Part shown: positions 9,668-53,024 of the stretch, piece by piece | How positions within the stretch are numbered: the first letter of the stretch is position 1 | Layout: each line of letters starts with the position of its first letter | DNA from: Maribacter sp. MJ134 | GTDB taxonomy: Bacteria; Bacteroidota; Bacteroidia; Flavobacteriales; Flavobacteriaceae | Direction of reading: 5' to 3' | DNA: 64,000 bases | NCBI RefSeq assembly: GCF_003970695.1 | Contig: NZ_CP034570.1 | Span: 310,001 to 374,000, forward strand | Position numbers and translations under genes: made by a program | The notes under the pieces: generated by a model | What the model was told of the DNA's origin: nothing | Databases searched by the model: none | Seen by the model: the letters and a program-made list of their open reading frames with translations, nothing else

Positions 9668-12292
9668 ATGGAAATCCCTTCAAAATATGAGCCTCACGAG
9701 GTAGAGAACAGATGGTACAACTATTGGATGAAAAATAACTTCTTTCATTCTACGCCAGATAATAGGACGCCTTACACCATCGTTATTCCACCACCAAATG
9801 TTACAGGGGTGTTGCATATGGGGCATATGTTAAACAATACCATCCAAGACGTATTGATCCGTAGAGCCCGTTTAATGGGTAAGAATGCCTGCTGGGTGCC
9901 CGGCATGGACCATGCATCAATAGCCACTGAGGCTAAGGTCGTTGCCAAATTGAAAGCGGAAGGAATAGCTAAATCGGACTTATCTCGAGAAGAATTTTTA
10001 AAGCATGCTTGGGATTGGACGGATGAATATGGAGGCGTAATTCTAGACCAATTAAAAAAGTTAGGCTGTTCCTGTGATTGGAACAGGACAAAATTCACTA
10101 TGGATGACGATATGTCAGCTTCCGTAATAAAGGTTTTTGTCGATTTATACAAAAAAGGGCAGATATACAGGGGCCACAGGATGGTTAATTGGGATCCGGA
10201 AGCACAAACTACACTATCTGACGAAGAAGTAATTTATGAGGAAAAGCAGGGATTACTCTATTATCTGGAATACCAATTAGAGGGCTCGGAAGAAAAGGTG
10301 ACCATTGCCACCACAAGACCCGAAACTATTTTGGGTGATACCGCGATCTGTATTAACCCAAACGACGAAAGGTTTCAGCATTTGAAAGGTAAAAAAGCTG
10401 TTGTACCCATTTGCGGTAGGGTCATTCCTATAATCGAGGACGAGTATGTTGATATTGAATTTGGAACGGGATGCCTTAAAGTAACACCCGCACATGATAT
10501 TAACGATAAGTCTTTAGGAGAAAAGCACAATCTTGAAACTATAGATATTTTCAATGATGATGCCACACTGAACAGTTTTGGACTGCACTACCAAGGAAAG
10601 GATAGATTTGTAGTACGTAAAGAAATCGCTAAAGAACTCAAAGAAAAAGGCTTCTTGGTTAAAACGGAGACGCATATTAATAAAGTAGGTACTTCTGAGC
10701 GAACCAAAGCGGTAATAGAACCTAAACTTTCGGATCAGTGGTTTCTTAGAATGGAAGACTTGGCAAAACCAGCTTTGGATGCGGTAATGACCAGCAAGGA
10801 AGTAAAACTTTTCCCAAAGAAATTTGAGAATACCTACCGCCATTGGATGGAAAATATACGGGATTGGAATATTTCTCGTCAACTATGGTGGGGACAGCAA
10901 ATTCCTGCATATTATTTTGGTGACGGTCAAGAAGATTTTGTAGTTGCCGAAAATGAGGATGAGGCGTTGAAGTTGGCACAAGCTAAAAATCCAAATATTA
11001 AAAAAACGGATTTACGCCAGGATGAAGATGTACTAGATACTTGGTTTTCTTCATGGTTATGGCCCATTAGTGTCTTTGGCGGAATTTTAGAGCCCGAGAA
11101 TGAAGAGATTCAATATTATTACCCAACAAACGATTTGGTGACCGGTCCGGATATTCTGTTTTTCTGGGTAGCACGGATGATTGTTGCAGGGTATGAATAT
11201 CGAGAAGAACGACCTTTTGAGAACGTTTATTTTACCGGATTGGTAAGGGATAAGCAGCGAAGAAAAATGTCCAAATCCCTTGGCAACTCTCCAGATGCCT
11301 TAAAGCTAATAAGCGATTACGGTGCCGATGGCGTTCGGGTCGGATTACTTCTAAGTTCGGCCGCTGGTAACGATTTAATGTTCGATGAAGACCTCTGCCA
11401 GCAAGGAAAGAATTTTGCCAATAAGATTTGGAACGGGTTTCGCCTGCTAAAGGGATGGGAAATCTCGGATTTGCCACAGCCTGAGGCCTCTAAATTAGCA
11501 TTGGACTGGTACACTTCAAAGTTCAATGAAACTTTGGTTGAAATTGAAGATCATTTTAGCAAATACCGTATTTCCGATGCATTAATGAGTATCTACAAAT
11601 TGGTATGGGACGATTATAGTTCTTGGTTGCTAGAACTCATAAAACCGGCCTACCAACAACCCATTGACAAAACAACTTTTGACGCGGTAATCCGGCTTTT
11701 TGAACAGAACTTAAAGCTGTTACATCCCTTTATGCCTTTCCTTACCGAGGAAGTCTGGCAGCATATTGCTGTAAGAACTCCTGAGGAGGCATTAGTAGTA
11801 GCGGAATGGCCCAAGGTATCGCAGTCCGATAAAAGCTTAATTTCAGAATTTGATTTTGCCGCAGAGGTCATTTCCGGAATCAGAACTATCAGAAAGGAAA
11901 AGAATATTCCTATGAAGGAAGCTTTGGAGCTTTCTGTATTGAACCAAGAAAAAGTAGCTTCCAAATGGGATGCCGTCATCTGTAAACTGACCAACGTCTC
12001 TAAGGTTTCTTATATAGATAGTCCGCTAGAAGGTGCACTTACCTTTCGTGTAAAATCTAACGAGTACTTTATACCTATTGCCGGAAACATTGATATTGAT
12101 GCGGAAATAGCCAAGATAAAAGAAGAGCTGAAGTATACGGAGGGTTTTCTAAAATCGGTTCAGAAAAAATTATCCAATGAGCGTTTTGTGAATAATGCCC
12201 CGGAGCAGGTCGTTGGTATCGAAAAGAAGAAGGCAGCCGATGCCGAGGCAAAAATTGAAACGTTAAAGAAGAGTCTGGCAAATTTAAGTTAA
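9668..12292 (+). CDS. valS: Valyl-tRNA synthetase
   Basis: 874 residues, the usual size for bacterial ValRS. It charges tRNA-Val and edits mischarged threonine. Class I signatures are [12 protein letters not shown] (HIGH-type, about 45-56) and KMSKSLGN (about 533). The CP1 editing domain lies between, with [14 protein letters not shown] near 218 and [29 protein letters not shown] and [12 protein letters not shown] mark the catalytic core. An anticodon-binding domain follows and the C-terminus is a charged coiled coil (about 805-870), the ValRS tRNA arm. Preceded by its own promoter and a structured leader. Monocistronic or co-transcribed with the HEPN gene 6 bases downstream. Confidence 0.97.
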
Positions 12293-44386: not shown

Positions 44387-45049
44387 TTATTCCAGTTCAT
44401 TTAACTTGTCTACATACTTTAACACTAACTGACTTTTAGGAATGTCATTCCTATTTTTTTCTTCTCTATATCGTTTTAGAAGAGCTAAGCTATTCTTAGC
44501 AAGTAATTCTTCTAAACCAAAATCATTTAAATAGGTTAGTTCATTGGATTCTAAGTCTACTAAATAAGGAAAACGTAATTGTGCAACTTTGGCACCATAA
44601 ATAGCTCCGCCGATACCTCCACCCACTTTGCTCCAGAAAGTAGAAGTTTCGCTTTCTTGAATTTGATAATTGTACATGTTTTCATCTTGGGAAATGCCAG
44701 CCACAAAAAATAAATACCGACCATGTTTTAAAACTGGCGTATAGTGAAGCTGGATATTATATTTGAAACAGTTTAAAAATAGTGTATCTCCATTTGAATA
44801 AGCTGCTATATTTTTCTTGATATCCTTTTTTGAGATAAGTTTTGTAGTAGAGGATATTCGATAGTCATTTCCGCCAGACATCTTTATTTCGCCTATAGTT
44901 CTTCTTTCTGATAATAGAGTGTAAGCCAGAGAAGGTTCTTTATTTTGGACTTCATCTATACTCATATAAATCCCTTTGGGAAAATCTTGAGCATTCAAAG
45001 CTAAGATGTTTACTAAAAAAAGAATTAGTGCAAGTAGTTTAATCTTCAT
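44387..45049 (-). CDS. Exported protein of unknown function at the end of the trp operon
   Basis: 220 residues with signal peptide MKIKLLALILFLVNILALNAQ. The mature part begins FPKGIYMSIDEVQNKEPS, which recalls short exported proteins of Bacteroidota with a beta-rich fold. A Gly-rich hydrophobic patch WSKVGGGIGGAIYGAKV may insert into or contact membrane. A helical tail (LEELLAKNSLALLKRYREEKN) follows. No family recognised. Its ATG overlaps the trpA stop by 4 bases, so it is translated with the trp operon, but nothing in the sequence links it to tryptophan. Confidence 0.78.
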   Translation of the reverse strand: MKIKLLALILFLVNILALNAQDFPKGIYMSIDEVQNKEPSLAYTLLSERRTIGEIKMSGGNDYRISSTTKLISKKDIKKNIAAYSNGDTLFLNCFKYNIQLHYTPVLKHGRYLFFVAGISQDENMYNYQIQESETSTFWSKVGGGIGGAIYGAKVAQLRFPYLVDLESNELTYLNDFGLEELLAKNSLALLKRYREEKNRNDIPKSQLVLKYVDKLNELE

Positions 45050-49997: not shown

Positions 49998-50642
49998 TCA
50001 ATACTGCGCTCGGCTATCAGGGCTTTTACCTTCTACCCAATTTTTTAATATTTGTTTTCCATTTGGAGTCAATACAGACTCTGGATGAAATTGTACGGCT
50101 CGTATATCAAAATCTCTGTGTTTTAGGGACATTATCTGTCCGTTGGTGTCAAAGGAGGTAGCCACTAAAGAATCTGGAATATTGTTGTTAACCACCCAAG
50201 AATGGTATCTGCCTACCGCTATTCGTTTTGGTAATCCTTCAAAAATATAATCGTCCTGTACAATTTCTATTTCAGATGCAACCCCGTGATACACTTGATC
50301 CAGGTTTACTAAACTTCCTCCGAAAACTTCCGCAATCGCTTGTTGCCCAAGGCATACCCCAAAAATACGTTTGGTCTTGGCATACCTTTTAATAATGGAT
50401 TTGAGTAAACCTGCTTCATCGGGAATTCCCGGACCTGGAGAAAGTACAATAAGTTCAAAATTGTCTACATCTTCCAAGTTTAGTTGGTCATTACGTTTTA
50501 CAACAACTTCACAGTCTAAATCCTCAAGATAGTGTACCAAATTATAGGTAAAACTATCGTAATTGTCAATCATTAAAATAGAAGCCCCCTCTGACTCCCC
50601 CATAAGGGGAGCACCTTTTCTCTTGTTATTATTAGTGCCCAT
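49998..50642 (-). CDS. trpG: Anthranilate synthase component II (glutamine amidotransferase)
   Basis: 214 residues as called from the ATG at 50642. Class I amidotransferase triad: Cys in FGVCLGQQAIAEVFGG, then His and Glu in VQFHPESVLTPNG; oxyanion motif LSPGPGIPDEAG. Normal TrpG begins at the strand ILMIDNYDSFTYNLV. Here residues about 10-21 (KGAPLMGESEGAS) are encoded by a GC-rich palindromic repeat, so the N-terminus has been rebuilt by repeat insertion. The repeat loop even supplies an ATG (Met14) that may be the real start. Supplies ammonia to TrpE. Confidence 0.93.
   Translation of the reverse strand: MGTNNNKRKGAPLMGESEGASILMIDNYDSFTYNLVHYLEDLDCEVVVKRNDQLNLEDVDNFELIVLSPGPGIPDEAGLLKSIIKRYAKTKRIFGVCLGQQAIAEVFGGSLVNLDQVYHGVASEIEIVQDDYIFEGLPKRIAVGRYHSWVVNNNIPDSLVATSFDTNGQIMSLKHRDFDIRAVQFHPESVLTPNGKQILKNWVEGKSPDSRAQY
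50582..50613 (-). repeat. GC-rich palindromic repeat inside the trpG 5' end
   Basis: CTCCCC (50595-50600) and GGGGAG (50606-50611) around CATAA, followed on the minus strand by GTCAGAGGGGGCTTC. Related in plan to the copy at 50761-50790 (C-rich arm, short loop, G-rich arm, T-A-G, GGGG, GGCTT), in the opposite orientation. Confidence 0.65.
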
Positions 50643-50745: not shown

Positions 50746-50760
50746 TTTTTAGTTTTTATT

Positions 50761-50790
50761 CCCCTCCTTGGGAGGGGTTAGGGGAGGCTT
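50761..50790 (+). repeat. GC-rich palindromic repeat at the trpE 3' end
   Basis: CCCCTCC (50761-50767) and GGAGGGG (50771-50777) around TTG, then TTAGGGGAGGCTT up to the trpE stop codon. Inverted relative of the repeat at 50582-50613. Confidence 0.7.
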
Positions 50791-52188
50791 TTAGATAGTT
50801 TCAGCAATTTCTAGCGCCTTGTTCAACGCTCCAAGTTTGTTATAGGTCTCTTGCAATTCGTCTTCCGCATCTGAGGCAGCCACTAATCCTGCACCTGCTT
50901 GGAAGTGTAATTCATGGTTTTTGCTTAAAAAAGTCCTAATCATAATTGCGTGGTTAAAGTTTCCATTGAAATCCATAAAGCCAATTGCTCCGCCATAATA
51001 TCCCCTGTTTGTTTTTTCATATTTTTCAATAAGCTGCATGGCCATATGTTTTGGGGCCCCACTCAATGTTCCGGCAGGAAAAGTGTCCGCTACAATTTTT
51101 AAGGTAGATATGTCGGCTTTTTTCATCCCTGTAACCTTGGATACGAGATGTATTACATGGGAGAAATATTGCACCTCACGATAGGTTTCTACGTTCACGA
51201 GATTTCCATTACGACTTAAGTCGTTCCGAGCTAAATCCACTAACATTACATGTTCACTATTTTCCTTATCGTCCTTTGCAAGTTGCTTTGCAAGTTCAGC
51301 GTCTTTTTCGTCATTTCCCGTTCTTTTATAGGTGCCTGCAATTGGGTGAATTTCCGCCTTACCATCCTTTACAATGATTTGTGCCTCTGGCGAACTACCG
51401 AAAATTTTAAAATCGCCATAATCAAAAAAGAAAAGATAAGGGGAGGGATTAATGGAGCGCAACGCCCTATAAACATTAAATTCATCGCCTCTAAAACCCT
51501 GGGAGAATCTTCTGGATAATACCAATTGAAAAACATCTCCTCGTTGGCAATGTTTTTTTGCGAGCGCAACGTGTTCTTTAAAAGCATTGTCTTCTAAGTT
51601 TGTTCTAACAGCTCCTTCCTTGGAGAAATTATAGGAGGCAAAATTCCTCACCTTTAAAACCTGTTCTAATTGCGGAATGTTATTTTCAGATTCAAAACAA
51701 TGCGCAAATAGATAGGCTTCGTTTTTGAAGTGATTAATTGCAATTACGTTTTGATACACGGCATAATAGATGTCGGGTATTGCAACCGAATTATCCTTCT
51801 TAGTAATTTCAATAGATTCAAAATAACGAACGGCGTCATAGGCCATAAATCCGAAAAGACCGTTTGTGATAAACTTAAAGTCTTGCTTCTCTATTTTAAA
51901 TTGTATGCCAAAACTGTCTATTTCCTTAGTGACCTCTGTTTCCTTAGTGATGTGAATTTCTTCTTTGGTACCATCAGGAAATTCTTTGGTGATGACTTCG
52001 TTCTGTACTTTTATGGAAGCTATCGGATTACAGCAGATATAGGAAAAACTATTGTCATTGGCATGGTAGTCACTACTTTCCAGTAAAATACTATTCGGGA
52101 ACTTATCCCTGATTTTAAGATAAACACTTACGGGAGTAATGGTATCTGCCAGGATTTTTTTAGAATGCGTTTGAAGTTGAAATGACAT
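50791..52188 (-). CDS. trpE: Anthranilate synthase component I
   Basis: 465 residues. Makes anthranilate from chorismate with ammonia from TrpG. Feedback-type N-terminal segment LLESSDYHANDNSFSYI (LLES plus S, the Trp-binding pattern). Chorismate-binding core: FQLVLSRRFSQGF, GSSPEAQIIV, PIAGTYKRTGNDEKDAELA, MLVDLARNDLSRNG, then FPAGTLSGAPKHMAM and YYGGAIGFMDFNG. First structural gene of the operon, 13 bases past the attenuator-like hairpin. Confidence 0.96.
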   Translation of the reverse strand: MSFQLQTHSKKILADTITPVSVYLKIRDKFPNSILLESSDYHANDNSFSYICCNPIASIKVQNEVITKEFPDGTKEEIHITKETEVTKEIDSFGIQFKIEKQDFKFITNGLFGFMAYDAVRYFESIEITKKDNSVAIPDIYYAVYQNVIAINHFKNEAYLFAHCFESENNIPQLEQVLKVRNFASYNFSKEGAVRTNLEDNAFKEHVALAKKHCQRGDVFQLVLSRRFSQGFRGDEFNVYRALRSINPSPYLFFFDYGDFKIFGSSPEAQIIVKDGKAEIHPIAGTYKRTGNDEKDAELAKQLAKDDKENSEHVMLVDLARNDLSRNGNLVNVETYREVQYFSHVIHLVSKVTGMKKADISTLKIVADTFPAGTLSGAPKHMAMQLIEKYEKTNRGYYGGAIGFMDFNGNFNHAIMIRTFLSKNHELHFQAGAGLVAASDAEDELQETYNKLGALNKALEIAETI

Positions 52189-52200
52189 AGTAAAAGTTAT

Positions 52201-52235
52201 AAATTAAAAAAGGCTTGTCGTGATGACAAGCCTTT
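52201..52235 (-). terminator. Attenuator terminator of the trp operon
   Basis: On the minus strand, perfect 11-bp arms AAAGGCTTGTC (52235-52225) and GACAAGCCTTT (52219-52209) around a 5-base loop, followed by T-rich sequence ending near 52201. It lies between the Trp leader peptide and the trpE start, the position of a classical attenuator. Confidence 0.8.
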
Positions 52236-52258
52236 ATATATTTTCAATAGGGACTAGT

Positions 52259-52312
52259 TCACGAATGTTGTCGCAAATTATTCCACCACCAAGTGTTATT
52301 CATTGATTTCAT
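52259..52312 (-). CDS. trp leader peptide with three consecutive Trp codons
   Basis: 17 codons: MKSMNNTWWWNNLRQHS, stop TGA at 52261-52259. Three adjacent TGG codons sit in the middle (52291-52283). It is followed after 23 bases by a strong terminator hairpin and then trpE. A short peptide rich in the product amino acid, a terminator and the biosynthetic operon in that order is the classical ribosome-mediated attenuation arrangement. The start may be Met1 or Met4: the -7 promoter box ends only 5 bases before Met1, so transcription probably begins at or next to it. The pausing RNA hairpin and antiterminator were not modelled. Confidence 0.8.
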   Translation of the reverse strand: MKSMNNTWWWNNLRQHS

Positions 52313-52317
52313 TGGTT

Positions 52318-52348
52318 CAAATATAAAAAGGAATTTTAAAGTCACCAA
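52318..52348 (-). promoter_or_regulatory. Bacteroidota promoter of the trp operon
   Basis: Minus strand: TTG (52348-52346), a 20-base spacer, then TATATTTG (52325-52318). This is a close consensus match, just upstream of the leader peptide. Confidence 0.65.
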
Positions 52349-52362
52349 TTTTCTTTACTTAA

Positions 52363-52404
52363 AAATAAAAATCCCATTGAAATTTCTTTCAACGGGATTT
52401 TTGT
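52363..52404 (-). terminator. Terminator after the yceI-like gene
   Basis: AAAAATCCC (52367-52375) pairs with GGGATTTTT (52394-52402); an inner TTGAAA/TTTCAA stretch continues the stem. On the minus strand it ends in a T-rich run, 33 bases past the stop at 52437. Confidence 0.8.
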
Positions 52405-52436
52405 AGGATTCTCTAAATTTCAAATACTCTTAGTAT

Positions 52437-53024
52437 TTATAGCGCGAGGTCTACCACTAAATCGAACTCGTCATAAATAGCTTTATCTCCTAAATCATCA
52501 AAAAAGCTACCAGAACCATATCTCACGTCAAATTTAGAACGGTCTACCTTAATTGTTGCCGTAGCTTTGTTTTCGAACATGGATACCACTAAGGTCACGG
52601 GCTTTGTAATTCCTTTTATGGTCAGGTCTCCAGAGACGCTATAGGACTTTGAATTTTTATCAAAAGGCTTTACGGAAGTAAAAACCAATTTAGCGGTCGG
52701 GTGATTTGCTACCCCGAAGAAATCATCAGACTTCAAATGGCCTTCTAGCTTCTCTTTTCCGTTACCTGCTGTCATATCCGTGTTGGTAATGCTTGTCATG
52801 TCCACAACAAATTCGCCTCCGGTAAGCTTTTCACCTTCCATCAACAAAAAGCCTGACTTAAGATTGATTTTACCTTCGTGTGAACCTGTAACTTTATACC
52901 CTTTCCAAGTCACCGTACTTTGTGAGACGTTTACTTCTTTTTTTTCGCCATCCACTGGTGTTGTCGCAGTGGCGGAAAATCCGAAAACTAGCGCTAATGC
53001 TATGCTAAATACTGTTTTTTTCAT
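52437..53024 (-). CDS. Exported YceI-family protein
   Basis: 195 residues from the ATG at 53024. The frame runs 27 codons further upstream, but only the inner Met gives a signal peptide (MKKTVFSIALALVFGFSATA). A YceI lipocalin-like barrel follows: STVTWKGYKVTGSHEG, GGEFVVDMTSITNTDM, LKSDDFFGVANHPTAKLVF, VSGDLTIKGITKPVTLVV and FDVRYGSGSFFDDLGDKAIYDEFDL. The family binds polyisoprenoid or other hydrophobic ligands in the periplasm. It lies downstream of the MarR-nitroreductase pair, 35 bases from the latter, and may belong to that operon. Confidence 0.92.
   Translation of the reverse strand: MKKTVFSIALALVFGFSATATTPVDGEKKEVNVSQSTVTWKGYKVTGSHEGKINLKSGFLLMEGEKLTGGEFVVDMTSITNTDMTAGNGKEKLEGHLKSDDFFGVANHPTAKLVFTSVKPFDKNSKSYSVSGDLTIKGITKPVTLVVSMFENKATATIKVDRSKFDVRYGSGSFFDDLGDKAIYDEFDLVVDLAL

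Follow-up and report, generated by a model that had tools for sequence, protein, structure and literature searches.

The region upstream of trpE very probably holds a ribosome-mediated transcription attenuator of the trp operon, made up of a short leader ORF with three adjacent Trp codons, an intrinsic terminator, and a strand around the leader stop codon that would compete for the 5' arm and loop of that terminator. The window, i.e., the whole 64,000-nucleotide stretch of DNA that was analysed, carries the operon on its minus strand in the order trpE, trpG, trpD, trpC, trpF, trpB, trpA, down to position 45046. As proposed in the initial annotation, a promoter, a 17-codon ORF with three Trp codons, an 11-bp terminator with its T-run and trpE can all be located on this strand. 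The features are given below, with the basis of each in brackets.

52367 to 52402, minus strand: terminator-like hairpin closing the upstream YceI-family gene (terminator scan)
52346 to 52348, minus strand: TTG, a possible -33 element, exactly 20 nt from the -7 box (sequence)
52318 to 52325, minus strand: -7 box TATATTTG, followed by AACCA and then the leader ATG at 52312 (sequence)
52312 to 52313, minus strand: predicted transcription start, at 52313 or at 52312, the A of the leader ATG (inferred from box spacing)
52259 to 52312, minus strand: leader ORF MKSMNNTWWWNNLRQHS-stop, 17 sense codons plus TGA, ending TCG TGA (sequence, conservation)
52283 to 52291, minus strand: three adjacent Trp codons, the putative sensor (sequence, conservation)
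52244 to 52292, minus strand: hairpin 1:2, in which the Trp codons and TTGCGA pair with TCGTGA and the bases after the stop; the ribosome-free fold and roughly the structured part of Rfam family RF01692 (folding, RF01692 alignment)
52252 to 52264, minus strand: candidate antiterminator strand, region 2, UCGUGA (last Ser codon and stop) plus ACUAGUC (pairing, permutation, helix, folding and column tests)
52218 to 52232, minus strand: candidate antiterminator target, region 3, GGCUUGUCAUCACGA, covering the terminator 5' arm, the loop and the top of the 3' arm (pairing, folding; TCACGA conserved)
52206 to 52235, minus strand: intrinsic terminator AAAGGCTTGTC-ATCAC-GACAAGCCTTT, 11 perfect pairs, 5-nt loop and T-run, with the stem-loop at 52235-52209 (sequence, folding, pairing in 41 loci)
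50791 to 52188, minus strand: trpE, first gene of trpEGDCFBA (ORF and family matches)

Leader peptide, terminator and promoter

Conservation was followed in the 80 nearest trpE loci, retained from 590, of which one (L003) was cut at trpE, leaving 79 with upstream sequence. The initial annotation had suggested looking for the Trp codons and the hairpin in relatives and folding the leader RNA: the WWW ORF is found upstream of trpE in all 79 close relatives, the terminator stem is paired in 99.8% of cells across 41 alignable loci, and the leader RNA fold beats all 200 shuffles (z = -3.99). The ORF lies within 400 nt of trpE in 71 of the 79 and farther upstream in the other eight; its absence from these eight was considered and rejected, the ORF standing farther up with an extra ORF inserted before trpE. 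In the 79 relatives and the window, the three TGG codons are invariant and the Asn two codons ahead of them is spelled AAT or AAC. The ORF ends in NCG-TGA in 79 of the 80 close loci, window included, after a variable codon, and TCACGA is found downstream of the ORF in 79 of the 80. The invariance of the third-position G and of the stop codon suggests that the RNA, rather than the peptide, is under constraint. The string TGGTGGTGG is weak proof alone (0.22 expected per window, five observed); the case rests on position and conservation. One of its four other occurrences in the window was examined (9788-9796, within a second own-genome WWW match at 9782-9796) and rejected because a class I tRNA synthetase gene lies opposite it.

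The terminator begins 23 nt after the end of the ORF and is separated from trpE by 17 nt. Terminator-like sites are found in the window at a frequency similar to that in shuffled sequence (12 vs 9.1, sd 3.7). Hairpin 1:2 is the minimum free energy fold, and the RF01692 alignment of the 5' hairpin shows many non-standard pairs.

The extra ORFs mentioned above occur in eight of the 79 relatives (L008, L009, L012, L015, L020, L021, L026 and L034), about 390 to 40 nt upstream of trpE. In both copies checked (L008, L026) the product is a GIY-YIG domain protein; the copy in L034 looks broken, and short palindromic repeats, seen by eye, adjoin the inserted ORFs. An ORF in this position should share the tryptophan co-regulation, since it sits between the attenuator and trpE.

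Upstream of the leader, the TTG at 52346 to 52348 (minus strand) is a trinucleotide that may serve as the -33 element. For F. johnsoniae, motifs other than the -33 are described as more pronounced (PMC6847099). The TAnnTTTG box is reported to lie at -12 to -5 (PMC9723704), and the distance from the -7 box to the start site is given as 4-5 nt (PMC6847099). The five bases AACCA do separate the box (52318) from the leader ATG (52312), as the initial annotation had read them, and the predicted 5' UTR of the window leader is 1 or 0 nt. Among the window and its 79 close relatives, the nearest TAnnTTTG lies 4-8 nt from the ATG in 75 of 80 and exactly 5 nt away in 51; the exceptions are two loci with spacings of 28 and 30 nt and three in which the exact box is missing. 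If the box sits at -12 to -5, or at a distance of 4-5 nt from the start site, close loci would be expected to have 5' UTRs of about 0-4 nt. The suggestion that the leader is nearly leaderless can thus be kept as a prediction, based on this spacing and the published start-site rules, and extended to the mRNAs of the window's clade. In 89 other loci the box is found at 4-10 nt in 34, at 16-18 nt in 25 and is missing in 20, so the nearly leaderless start would be mainly a feature of the clade and no precondition of attenuation. Nearly leaderless mRNAs are a minority within the phylum: leaderless mRNAs are reported at 5.5% in F. psychrophilum (PMC9723704), leaders longer than 10 nt in 87% of predicted transcripts in F. 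johnsoniae (PMC6847099), and 5' UTRs shorter than 10 nt at about 3.7% in Bacteroides thetaiotaomicron (PMC7366714).

Two alternatives are compatible with attenuation. Translation could begin at the second in-frame ATG (codon 4, 52303), giving a 5' UTR of about 10 nt. An extra in-frame Met between the conserved start and WWW is present in ten of the 80 close loci, the window and nine relatives (read by eye; the script's count of 16 includes six loci with longer upstream starts), but the other 70 lack it, and counting from the first ATG places the first W at codon 8 or 9 in 72 of the 80, which makes this start unlikely. Slightly less likely again is an additional action in trans of the short RNA or the peptide, like that of Sinorhizobium meliloti rnTrpL/peTrpL: a terminated, conserved and nearly leaderless RNA does resemble rnTrpL as it has been reported (PMC7298713), but a role in cis suffices to explain the conservation.

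The candidate antiterminator pairing

The initial annotation had hinted at GACAA:UUGUC as the seed of an antiterminator. This pairing did not hold up, as only six of the 80 close loci, window included, have GACAA within the final 30 nt of the ORF, and UCGUGA is a better partner for the terminator. In the window, UCG UGA is perfectly complementary to UCACGA in the terminator loop and the top of the 3' arm, with a TCGTGA-TCACGA spacing of 35 nt; ACUAGUC continues the helix with one mismatch against GGCUUGU in the 5' arm, bringing the whole duplex to -11.9 kcal/mol. A window-wide search for other TCGTGA/TCACGA pairs 8-30 nt apart found none.

The pairing was evaluated in a set chosen without regard to it. 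A Trp leader ORF and terminator were found by script in 182 of 211 sequences; removal of 13 duplicates left 169, which were reduced to 48 representatives with less than 70% identity. Stop regions (24 nt on each side) pair with their own terminators at a mean of -13.99 kcal/mol, compared with -10.97 (sd 0.40) after permutation, the observed mean being reached in 0 of 20,000 permutations, and the same test gives z values of only 0.6 for start codon regions and 0.1 for Trp codon regions. Base composition can be excluded as the cause, since shuffled stop regions bind their own and foreign terminators equally (-9.22 in both cases). When 13-nt segments of the leader are scanned, the excess over foreign partners is highest for segments whose centre precedes the stop-codon end by 9 to 4 nt; it declines over about 12 nt in both directions, and a lesser peak appears 30 to 25 nt ahead of that end. 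Single loci are less telling: only five of the 48 have their own terminator as best partner and 16 have it within the top three, which is in part due to motifs shared by many loci. For the stop region of the window, whose antiterminator core is only 6 bp, 12 of the 47 other terminators pair at least as well, and z falls below -1.64 against shuffles of the locus's own stop region in only 29 of the 48. UCGUGA:UCACGA may be regarded as a candidate switching pair with good statistical support from these sequence comparisons.

Covariation across the phylum points the same way. The best single helix has 37 different sequences in the 48 representatives (permutation z = 8.2, 0 of 20,000), examples being GTCGTGAG:CTCACGAC, GTCGTAAGG:CTTTACGGC, GATGAACA:TGTTCATC, CGTCGGG:CCCGACG, GGGATGA:TCATCCC and GAACAGC:GCTGTTC. 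It overlaps the stop codon in 19 of 48 and starts directly after it in four more (read from the list; the script's 23 comprises both), and it lies within about 6 nt of the stop codon in 43, a count to be read with the search span in mind, as this runs from 21 nt before to 15 nt after the stop and favours positions near it. Between the last Trp codon and the helix there is a median gap of 18 nt; 37 of the 48 fall at 14-21 nt (counted from the list), leaving 11 whose best helix falls outside this range. In L074 and L108, an upstream shift of the stop codon leaves the 18-nt spacing between Trp codons and helix unchanged; the ruler thus seems to be anchored at the Trp codons. The leader stop is also upstream of the usual stop-region strand in L131 and L164, the script's best helix in L164 lying elsewhere.

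The 41 alignable loci allow a column-by-column view. Over the eight named pairs, 11 cells are changed on both sides, compared with 3.4 in shuffles, and none of 500 shuffles is as high; the number of pair types is equalled by 48 of 500. The named register pairs in 83% of cells, as against 18-58% when it is slid. Failures of the six core pairs are confined to 6 of 246 cells. The two flanking pairs account for seven of the 11 cells changed on both sides and are broken in 23 and 26 of the 41 loci. RNAalifold returns only the terminator from the 41-row alignment, a result that is neutral on the pairing of regions 2 and 3 (2:3) because 2:3 and the terminator (3:4) are mutually exclusive. At the level of sequence and covariation, the leader ORF, the terminator and the competing pairing, including where it lies, are shown.

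A reading just below trans action in probability would keep the attenuator and make UCGUGA:UCACGA a loop contact, i.e., a pseudoknot that coexists with the terminator instead of competing with it. In Flavobacteriaceae the terminator loop is indeed much of the target, and the core is only 6-7 bp. However, the best helix is confined to the loop in none of the 48 representatives; bases of the 5' arm are used in 28 and of the 3' arm in 23, and some helices lie wholly within the 5' arm (CGTCGGG:CCCGACG in L139, GGCAGCCT:GGGTTGCC in L127). Every helix thus reaches beyond the loop and can form only at the expense of terminator pairs.

Competition was also modelled as alternative folding. When transcription has reached 6 nt into the 3' arm and the modelled ribosome sits on the last Trp codon, 38 of the 48 representatives form 2:3 in place of the terminator, a count that ranges from 37 to 40 as the footprint is varied between 10 and 15 nt; moving the ribosome to the first Trp codon gives 35. 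A ribosome at the stop codon gives 2:3 in none and a started terminator in 45; with no ribosome, 2:3 forms in five. Ten of the 48 do not switch in the model, and with 8 nt of the 3' arm out 2:3 persists in only 18. Own leaders can be compared with swapped ones: 38 of 48 switch vs 22.0 expected at 6 nt, and 18 vs 6.0 at 8 nt. For the window, every modelled state fits the classical scheme; among the 12 loci printed, departures in a single state are seen in L005 (first Trp codon) and L109 (no ribosome). The full-length equilibrium fold favours the terminator in all 12 modelled loci, so antitermination would have to be kinetic, a matter of timing. Computationally, and with the exceptions given, the antiterminator would exclude the terminator and be free only upon a stall at the Trp codons.

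A later set of loci was obtained with a covariance model, R1, built from 46 loci after six poorly fitting ones had been excluded. R1 matches at E up to 0.1 occur in 229 of 395 genomes, a number that gives no prevalence because eight of 20 fetched places had no Trp leader and terminator by script. The other 12 of these 20 places, none given by RF01692, did have both, so that R1 yields Trp leaders which RF01692 had missed. In these 12, own duplexes average -14.45 vs -10.18 (0 of 50,000 permutations), and the helix score is reached in 2 of 50,000; with near-duplicates removed (10 loci), the corresponding counts are 1 and 0 of 50,000. In nine of the 12 the distance from the last Trp codon to the helix is 14-22 nt, and new perfect helices include AACAGTGGG:CCCACTGTT and GGATTCAG:CTGAATCC. 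Exceptions are L245, L248 and L259, and the helix of L243 is weak, at only 5 bp. This set is not fully independent: stop regions were part of what R1 was built on, and some of the other helices (L241, L247) carry motifs already known from the first set. The window's own genome has a second weak R1 match outside the window (G000:C1:3335045-3335151, plus strand, E 0.001), which may be a terminator or another leader.

An unregulated, partial terminator accompanied by an incidental WWW ORF, as the five copies of TGGTGGTGG and the ordinary number of terminator-like sites in the window might suggest, is highly improbable given an ORF present in 79 of 79 close relatives, an NCG-TGA end in 79 of 80 and a pairing that covaries phylum-wide.

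Proposed switching and its implications

The proposal of ribosome-mediated trp attenuation in the initial annotation is therefore one that conservation, covariation and alternative-fold modelling support well. From these we infer ribosome stalling, a response to Trp, kinetic antitermination and nearly leaderless initiation. RNA polymerase would start at the leader AUG or 1 nt upstream, and a ribosome would translate the leader. With ample charged tRNA-Trp, the ribosome at the stop codon would cover UCGUGA, the terminator would form and trpE would be off. With scarce Trp-tRNA, the ribosome would stall on the UGG codons and leave UCGUGAACUAGUC, 18 nt downstream, free to pair with the emerging terminator loop and 5' arm, which would delay the hairpin and allow readthrough into trpEGDCFBA. 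When no ribosome is present, the antiterminator strand would be locked in hairpin 1:2, making termination the default. The upstream hairpin at 52367 to 52402 should insulate the leader.

A broader reading can be put forward tentatively, at slightly less than even confidence: in the window's clade, the nearly leaderless nascent RNA would be loaded with ribosomes without a Shine-Dalgarno sequence, so that translation is coupled to the polymerase from codon 1 onward; the antiterminator strand, in much of Bacteroidota, would lie about 18 nt (roughly the half-footprint of a ribosome) behind the Trp codons, often holding the stop codon. To our knowledge, transcription-translation coupling has been little studied in Bacteroidota; if coupling from the first codon is true, leading ribosomes would keep pace with the polymerase in this phylum. 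Classical attenuation, which needs coupled transcription and translation, would then be widely retained across a phylum in which reliance on Shine-Dalgarno sequences is mostly absent; in the window's clade the start would apparently be nearly leaderless. A testable switching mechanism with named bases is thereby proposed for the Bacteroid-trp leader RNA, which has been catalogued since 2010.

Other observations concern the operon itself. G/C-rich palindromic repeats are found on the minus strand at 50760-50800, in the trpE-trpG gap, and at 50580-50620, within the 5' end predicted for trpG (KRKGAPLMGESEGAS). Most NCBIfam matches to trpG do not begin before residue 20, which makes a later start for the gene probable and gives the repeat the look of an insertion. 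At the other end, a 220-aa ORF (44387-45049, minus strand) overlaps the end of trpA by 4 bases and may belong to the operon; it has no NCBIfam match up to E 1e-5.

Comparison with known leader RNAs

The nearest catalogued relative is RF01692 (Bacteroid-trp, 'Bacteroidete tryptophan peptide leader RNA'), which matches the leader over model positions 1-131, not truncated, with 47.6 bits (E 7.3e-5 for 301 bases), missing the gathering threshold of 49 bits by 1.4 bits. The Rfam search covered 4227 families; at gathering scores the whole window gives four tRNAs only, so a default scan misses the leader, its RF01692 score lying under the cut-off. Other known riboregulators were considered and rejected: among 33 matches up to E 10 in 52150-52450, RF01692 is nearest its cut-off, the next, cyano_het_sRNA, falls 6.6 bits short, and Rfam Trp_leader is missing. 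RF01692 is over its cut-off in 37 of 395 phylum genomes, many of the window's own family, and reaches E <= 1 in 63; in 395 class genomes, a sample overlapping that of the phylum, it reaches E <= 1 in 77, with 17 over the cut-off. The Bacteroid-trp motif is listed for Bacteroidetes in Table 1 of Weinberg et al. 2010 (PMC2864571). Its trait, a short ORF with adjacent Trp codons before trp genes (as also read from the model consensus), is present here. Like RF01692, the window has a leader RNA before Bacteroidota trp genes, matched across the Trp codons and the 5' hairpin. In contrast, the RF01692 structure is only a hairpin resembling 1:2, and the model ends at the terminator 5' arm, with neither the terminator pairing nor the 2:3 antiterminator pairing. 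We file the window as a member of the wider kind of trp leader-peptide attenuators, and not as a certified member of RF01692, because its score is below the gathering threshold. The element itself is an already catalogued kind; the antiterminator pairing is the addition here. No description of this antiterminator was found in main-text passages of the open literature on Bacteroidetes trp leaders and attenuation. The work on bacterial attenuation by Lopatovskaya et al. 2010 is said to cover further phyla and may hold earlier predictions.

The trpL attenuator of E. coli works by a three-state logic with hairpin 1:2, antiterminator 2:3, terminator 3:4 and tandem Trp codons. The window would share this logic and has the tandem codons, but it has three of them, its stop codon lies within the candidate antiterminator strand, and its predicted 5' UTR of 0-1 nt leaves no room for a Shine-Dalgarno sequence. 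Within the phylum, Bacteroid-trp is reported before the trp operon of Flavobacterium psychrophilum, together with 'strong clues' for leader-peptide attenuation before amino-acid operons (PMC9723704, PMC6414381); the main-text passages concerned give no antiterminator. S. meliloti is more distant, being an Alphaproteobacterium, and the trans activity reported for it (PMC7298713) is only conceivable in the window. The two leaders are nonetheless alike in being Trp leader RNAs that begin at the leader-peptide ATG, a 5' end that is reported for S. meliloti trpL (PMC7298713) and predicted here.
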